A DNA stretch of 64,000 nt from Paraburkholderia sp. PREW-6R (GTDB taxonomy: Bacteria; Pseudomonadota; Gammaproteobacteria; Burkholderiales; Burkholderiaceae): positions 2,418,001-2,482,000 of the forward strand of contig NZ_CP155073.1 of the NCBI RefSeq assembly GCF_039621805.1, in the 5' to 3' direction. The position numbers and the translations under genes are program-made. The number at the start of each line of letters is the position of its first letter. The first letter of the stretch is position 1. The notes under the pieces are model-generated. The model saw only the letters and a program-made list of their open reading frames with translations, had not been told where the DNA came from and did not search any database. Below, piece by piece: positions 25,135-57,898 of the stretch.

Positions 25135-25150
25135 CTGTATATCCATACAA
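25135..25150 (-). promoter_or_regulatory. LexA-box-like site upstream of the helicase gene
   Basis: The 16 bases match CTGT-N8-ACAG at 7 of the 8 defined positions: CTGT at 25135-25138 and ACAA at 25147-25150, with an A/T-rich centre. It is 42 bases upstream of the GTG start of the UvrD-like gene, a normal distance for an SOS operator. Confidence 0.6.
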
Positions 25151-56625: not shown

Positions 56626-57792
56626 TCAGAACAGTTCGAGTTGCGGACTCACGGGTGGGGGCGCCTTCACCGGGTCACGCGCAGGCTCGATCCGCCGGAA
56701 ATGCGACATGTCCAGAATGCCGCGGTCGCGTTGATTGAGGCCCAAGCGGCGGGCAGCGTTGTGAAAACGCTGCTTGAGCAGATCTGCCCACAACCCCTCC
56801 CCCTTCATGCGGCTGGAGAAACACGCGTCGTAATCTTTGCCGCCGCGCATGTCACGCACGCGGCTCATCACACGGTCAGCACGATCGGGGAAGTGGGCGG
56901 CCAGCCAATCCTTGAAGAGCGGTGCGACTTCCCACGGCAGACGCAGCACGATGTAGCTCGCATTGCACGCACCCGCCTCCGCGCACGCCTCGAGCACCCT
57001 TTCCAGGTCTGGCTCGGTAACGAATGGAATCATCGGCGCGACGCTGACGCCGACTGGAATGCCCGCCTCGCTCAACGTCCGGATTGTGCGCAATCGGCGC
57101 GACGGTGTTGCCGCACGCGGTTCGAGCGTGCGCGCAATGTCCGAATCCAGCGTGGTGATCGTGATTGCGGCCATGAATTGGCCGCGCGCCGCCATGGGCG
57201 CAAGCAGATCAAGATCGCGCTCGATCAGCGATGATTTGGTGATCGCCGCGAACGGATGATTCCGCTCGCCAAGTATTTCGACGACCCGCCGCGTGAGCCG
57301 TAACTCGCGCTCGACCGGTTGCCACGCGTCCGTATTCACGCCTAGCGCGATCGGCTCGGGCATATAAGACTTCTTCGACAACTCCCGTTCGAGCAATTCC
57401 GGCGCGTTAACCTTCGCATAGATGCGGCTCTCGAAGTCGAGGCCCGGGGACAAGCCGAGATAGCTGTGCGTTGGCCGCGCGAAGCAATAGATGCAGCCGT
57501 GCTCACAACCGCGATACGGATTCAGCGACACGCTAAACGGGATGTCCGGCGATGCATTGCGCGTGAGGATGGTCTTCGCCTGCTCTTCGAAGAGCTGCGT
57601 GCGTAGAACCTTGGTGTCGTCGCCGTCTTCATCCTGATGAGTGACCCACCCGTCGTCCACGGCTTCGCGCTGGTCCACTTCGTAGCGGCCTTGAAGATTC
57701 GTGACAGCGCCTCGCCCCTTGCGGGGTGCGGGCGGCGCGACAGGAAACTCGGGCACGGATGCGTCAGCAGGGTCGAAATCGGAGTCGGTCAC
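56626..57792 (-). CDS. PA0069 family radical SAM protein
   Basis: A 388-residue radical SAM protein related to spore photoproduct lyase and to the P. aeruginosa PA0069 family. The cluster motif is NPYRGCEHGCIYCFARPTHS (CxxxCxxC, residues about 91-110). Other landmarks are FESRIYAKVNAPELLERELSKKSY and IPFVTEPDLERVLEACAEAG. The start is GTG. A perfect LexA-type box lies 35 bases upstream, and I recall PA0069 being listed in the P. aeruginosa LexA regulon, so a DNA-damage-related role is likely. The substrate is unknown. A C-terminal Pro-rich tail ends SPQLELF, a beta-clamp-binding-like sequence (QLxLF). Confidence 0.9.
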   Translation of the reverse strand: MTDSDFDPADASVPEFPVAPPAPRKGRGAVTNLQGRYEVDQREAVDDGWVTHQDEDGDDTKVLRTQLFEEQAKTILTRNASPDIPFSVSLNPYRGCEHGCIYCFARPTHSYLGLSPGLDFESRIYAKVNAPELLERELSKKSYMPEPIALGVNTDAWQPVERELRLTRRVVEILGERNHPFAAITKSSLIERDLDLLAPMAARGQFMAAITITTLDSDIARTLEPRAATPSRRLRTIRTLSEAGIPVGVSVAPMIPFVTEPDLERVLEACAEAGACNASYIVLRLPWEVAPLFKDWLAAHFPDRADRVMSRVRDMRGGKDYDACFSSRMKGEGLWADLLKQRFHNAARRLGLNQRDRGILDMSHFRRIEPARDPVKAPPPVSPQLELF

Positions 57793-57827
57793 GATGATGG
57801 CACGCCAAGGAAAAACGACGAAAACAC

Positions 57828-57843
57828 CTGTATAAATATACAG
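57828..57843 (-). promoter_or_regulatory. LexA box (SOS operator) upstream of the PA0069-like gene
   Basis: CTGTATAAATATACAG matches CTGT-N8-ACAG at every defined position, with 7-bp perfect arms (CTGTATA / TATACAG) around AA. It is 35 bases upstream of the GTG start and overlaps the expected promoter. Confidence 0.85.
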
Positions 57844-57898
57844 TGTTTACGTCGTTTGTCGAGGCCTCCTTTAGCGTGCTGCCGACCACTGCCGACCA

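Follow-up and report, generated by a model that had tools for sequence, protein, structure and literature searches.

The question raised by this locus is whether a radical SAM gene lying downstream of a LexA-type operator encodes an enzyme that acts on damaged DNA, and by what means such an enzyme would be brought there. To our knowledge, very few enzymes are known for radical SAM chemistry on DNA. The gene is found on the minus strand of the window (the whole stretch of 64,000 nucleotides that was analysed), where the following features were identified:

56626..57792, minus strand: PA0069-family radical SAM gene with a GTG start, 388 aa (open reading frame, NF033668 score, CxxxCxxC motif, AlphaFold2 model)
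56629..56643, minus strand: QLELF, a predicted peptide of the sliding-clamp-binding type (C-terminal, conserved in orthologues)
57828..57843, minus strand: predicted LexA (SOS) operator, CTGTATATTTATACAG in gene orientation (pattern match and orthologue conservation)
57835..57840, minus strand: -10 hexamer TATATT, inside the LexA box (promoter scan)
57857..57862, minus strand: -35 hexamer TCGACA (promoter scan)
57813..57857, minus strand: extended dyad, about 14 bp more per side with the LexA box central (fold z -4.3)

LexA box and promoter of the PA0069-family gene

An initial annotation of this DNA had described a perfect LexA box 35 bases before the start codon, and this description was borne out: CTGTATAAATATACAG at 57828-57843 is a perfect CTGT-N8-ACAG with a single departure from a fully alternating core, and 35 nt separate it from the GTG at 57792, a start that is also visible in several same-genus genomes. 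By itself, CTGT-N8-ACAG is non-significant in 64 kb, with 0.48 occurrences expected by chance. LexA boxes were scored by using the fuller consensus CTGTATATATATACAG, to which the box shows one mismatch; two sites within three mismatches of this consensus are present in the window, compared with none in 100 shuffles. The promoter scan found TCGACA-16-TATATT (10 of 12 matches; mean of 0.1 in shuffled sequences) as the only promoter-like site in the 500-nt region scanned, and its -10 hexamer is covered by the LexA box.

The upstream Lrp-like gene, which has the same orientation, was considered as the owner of the box and rejected, since 91 nt lie between its end and the box and since the box is retained in 15 same-family genomes in which no Lrp gene was found nearby. 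The long dyad around the box was present in all nine same-genus genomes (9/9), with arms that differ in sequence yet remain complementary, as judged from arms aligned by hand with small bulges handled imperfectly. Most of the genome's other SOS boxes have no such dyad or only a weak one, and a canonical terminator was discounted because the terminator scan calls none there.

Pattern searches of the genome, which were used to rank the regulon, revealed 18 sites within three mismatches of CTGTATATATATACAG, compared with two for a reversed control pattern. The six best sites have one mismatch each and include those of imuA (twice), uvrA and the PA0069-family gene, and the lexA site has two. Weaker LexA-type sites adjoin genes for a UDG/DUF4130 protein, a photolyase-related protein, a UvrD-like helicase and an AlkB-like oxygenase. 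The box of the PA0069-family gene is thus found in the company of recognisable SOS genes.

Several other sites were recorded in the course of these searches. A LexA-like site, CTGTATATCCATACAA, lies at window positions 25135-25150 and precedes, by 42 nt, a minus-strand gene for a UvrD/Rep-like helicase. The second imuA, with its one-mismatch LexA box at C4:201230, is located on a 344-kb contig. The gene for the AlkB-like 2OG oxygenase (C2:866056-866723), which has a LexA-type box, encodes a protein whose N-terminus is MMVSQQTLF, and a Q-x-x-L-F near the N-terminus is also found in its four closest same-family relatives.

Conservation of the box across clades

The orthologue sample comprised 211 PA0069-family genes from other genomes, grouped into taxa by kinship to the source genome; by this grouping, the same-family set is probably Burkholderiaceae and the other-class set probably Alphaproteobacteria. 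A scan of orthologue promoters for CTGT-N8-ACAG, as had been proposed for this gene, found the exact pattern upstream of 51/69 orthologues of the same family, 7/11 of the same order and 16/80 of the remaining same-class set, whereas roughly 640 control windows taken from these loci contained none; the counts are not independent because the sequences are related. The box is thus conserved in close relatives. Three further same-family orthologues have a clear site at one or two mismatches, and the pattern is missing in one same-family genus (0/9), part of another and most of the other same-class orthologues.

None of the 50 other-class orthologues carries CTGT-N8-ACAG, and GTTC-N7-GTTC is found instead before 46 of them, compared with 0/150 control windows. 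Moreover, among 83 Rv2578c-type relatives from named actinobacteria, TCGAAC-N4-GTTCGA at a threshold of two mismatches or fewer precedes 77 genes, compared with 1/83 in gene bodies. Orthologues therefore hold the box in whichever form their own clade uses, with two motifs in Proteobacteria and a third in Actinomycetota, and the fact that the operator differs in form from clade to clade is a stronger argument than the counts themselves. The earlier suggestion that SOS control is conserved across two classes appears, from these operators, to have been an understatement.

The regulatory half of this account is not new, since LexA control had already been predicted for the 'splB' group. In 2012, such control was predicted for alpha- and beta-proteobacterial 'splB' genes, whose role was read as photoreactivation (PMC3323433). 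The gene studied here is very probably the same as that SOS-regulated 'splB', because the genome has just one PA0069-family match; the passages of that paper that were consulted do not discuss the C-terminus of its product. In addition, Gram-positive bacteria have a radical SAM gene in their core SOS regulon (PMC7739468), SOS networks of Bacteroidetes include SplB (PMC8565304), and a Streptomyces radical SAM gene, which may belong to another family than PA0069/Rv2578c, is listed as bound by LexA in ChIP and induced by mitomycin (PMC9380542). On the basis of the box, its conservation and the published predictions, LexA control of the PA0069-family gene is very likely.

Enzyme family, fold and catalytic residues

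The assignment of the gene as PA0069-like was confirmed by comparison with the NF033668 (rSAM_PA0069) model, against which the 388-aa protein scores 472.5 bits (cut-off 360) over model positions 1-337 of 348. This family is described as a hypothetical equivalog; in the present sample, a clamp-type C-terminal motif is nearly universal in it. The score against the Rv2578c family (NF038135) is 227.1 bits, below the cut-off of 430, which makes Rv2578c a sister family of which the protein is not a member. The Rv2578c family shows 30-35% identity with the protein, the same core motifs and a tail ending in LF, and has its own SOS-type box in the actinobacterial form.

The cysteines of the CxxxCxxC cluster (C96, C100 and C103) are invariant in 78 relatives. 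The AlphaFold2 model has a mean pLDDT of 88, with the core above 90 and the tail at 61, and its closest solved fold is that of spore photoproduct lyase (SPL), with Z 19.9, 263 aligned residues and rmsd 3.1; the next family reaches 15.2. The resemblance to SPL that had been proposed for the protein therefore holds for the fold and fails for the catalytic residues and the family score, which is only 16.1 bits against TIGR04070 (cut-off 400). SPL catalysis uses a hydrogen-donor cysteine (C141 in Bacillus subtilis) and a relay tyrosine (Y99) beside the third cluster cysteine (PMC3742179). SPL (TIGR04070; PDB 4FHC-4FHG, 4K9R and 4RH0) shares the fold and the CxxxCxYC cluster motif with the PA0069 family, whereas the donor cysteine and the relay tyrosine set it apart. 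No invariant fourth cysteine that could be the hydrogen donor was found in the 78 relatives (32% in the top column), and the relay position is Phe104 here and, in the alignment, Phe in 60/77 and Tyr in 17/77 sequences. In these natural sequences, phenylalanine stands where the slow SPL mutants Y99F/Y98F have it.

Thus, the protein has an SPL-like fold and is not an SPL by score and residue tests. The lack of a conserved hydrogen-donor cysteine makes spore-photoproduct repair an improbable chemistry for it, and it would most likely be used to reverse some other lesion directly or to modify it by radical chemistry. Other clues to function or origin were sought and set aside: no PADLOC match pointed to a defence function, phage matches were only distant radical SAM proteins of which none covered 80% of the query, and the neighbouring genes vary, with no operon partner conserved among orthologues.

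C-terminal peptide and proposed mechanism

Published bacterial clamp motifs include QL[SD]LF, Q-phi-x-[LM]-[FL] and Q-phi-x-[LM]-x-[FL] (PMC9690074, PMC13254535). The QLELF at the end of the protein, which had been likened to a beta-clamp-binding peptide, fits this consensus and lies on an accessible tail with a pLDDT of 61. The likeness extends to the orthologues, since a motif of this predicted type is conserved in 210 of the 211 tails: 151 have the pentapeptide (counted as Q-phi-x-[LM]-[FL], with Met allowed as phi), 6 have the hexapeptide, the motif is relaxed in 53 (QGSLF, for example), and one tail has none. The strict form Q[LM]xLF is found in 118/211 tails and nowhere in 84,179 residues of the remaining protein bodies. 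No residue follows the pentapeptide in 175 orthologues, and the linker that leads to it ranges from 15 to 73 residues. Q384 and L387 are at least 90% conserved, Actinomycetota included; in the actinobacterial set, 81/83 proteins end in LF, LL or LI, and Q occupies position -5 in 53/83 and is absent from it in the other 30/83, in which LF is mostly retained.

The genome contains another radical SAM gene with an SOS box, rSAM_link_UDG (TIGR03916; LexA-type box at C1:1883304, gene at 1883342-1884520), whose product ends in QLALL. Among the relatives sampled, 31/34 end in a clamp-type motif and the remaining three in QLGFGF, and a CTGT-N8-ACAG box was present in 10/10 same-family members. A conserved peptide on a variable tail, the occurrence of both clamp-motif lengths and the recurrence in two SOS-boxed families together make clamp recruitment the best explanation, and tethering of the PA0069-family enzyme to the sliding clamp is likely on these sequence patterns. 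A search of the literature on radical SAM or SplB proteins and the clamp, which left most subscription papers outside its range, found no report of the terminal motif, and as far as we found it is unreported. A suggestive parallel is provided by archaea, in which SplB-like genes adjoin NreB and the Nre family has a sliding-clamp (PCNA) motif (PMC4929162), so that an SplB-like gene is also linked to a clamp motif; in the archaeal case, however, the motif is carried by the neighbour's family, whereas in the PA0069 family it is on the radical SAM protein itself.

These observations can be combined in a mechanism in which LexA would bind the box and repress the gene for an SplB-fold radical SAM protein until RecA inactivates LexA, whereupon the enzyme would be made. 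Its flexible C-terminal tail, ending in QLELF, would then tether it to the beta sliding clamp (DnaN), and the tethered enzyme may act on damaged DNA at replication forks and repair patches or in their wake. The analysis itself establishes the position of the box over the promoter, the conservation of the box in clade-specific forms, the fold and a conserved terminal motif borne on a variable linker; binding by LexA, binding of the tail to DnaN and a DNA lesion as substrate are inferred. We consider with good confidence that the protein is a LexA-repressed, clamp-tethered SplB-fold radical SAM enzyme acting on damaged DNA.

Three other explanations were weighed against this reading. That the control by LexA is real and the terminal Q-x-x-L-F caps the structure, acts as a degron or binds some other partner would agree with a short helix predicted at residues 383-387 and with the part of Actinomycetota that loses Q and keeps LF; we consider it unlikely, however, because the motif sits on a variable linker of 15-73 residues, alternates between both known clamp-motif lengths and recurs on the second SOS-boxed family. 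The 2012 proposal, on which the gene would encode a true SPL-type enzyme that repairs photoproducts and is controlled by the SOS response, is slightly less probable still: no solved fold is closer than SPL (Z 19.9), and PMC3323433 names the alpha/beta homologue splB and calls its role photoreactivation, but the 16 bits against a TIGR04070 cut-off of 400, the lack of a fourth conserved cysteine (maximum 32% per column) and the replacement of the relay Tyr by Phe in 60/77 sequences all argue against it. The least probable explanation, to which we give very little weight, is that the substrate modified by the enzyme is RNA or a small molecule and that its SOS control is incidental; radical SAM folds with such RNA or metabolite substrates do align at Z 13-15, although the SPL fold is clearly ahead of them and the SOS boxes recur across clades with three different LexA motifs.

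A broader and much more tentative extension of the preferred reading, that of a LexA-repressed and clamp-tethered enzyme, is that PA0069/Rv2578c and rSAM_link_UDG may form an SOS-induced, clamp-recruited radical SAM class reversing a lesion other than the spore photoproduct at replication forks, perhaps an intra- or interstrand crosslink. If this were true, the class would represent a replication-coupled direct-repair pathway. If clamp docking under SOS control is true, a common and nearly unstudied gene would become a testable repair factor, removing the last five residues of its product would separate the functions cleanly, and the puzzle of the archaeal SplB-like and Nre proteins would have a counterpart in bacteria.
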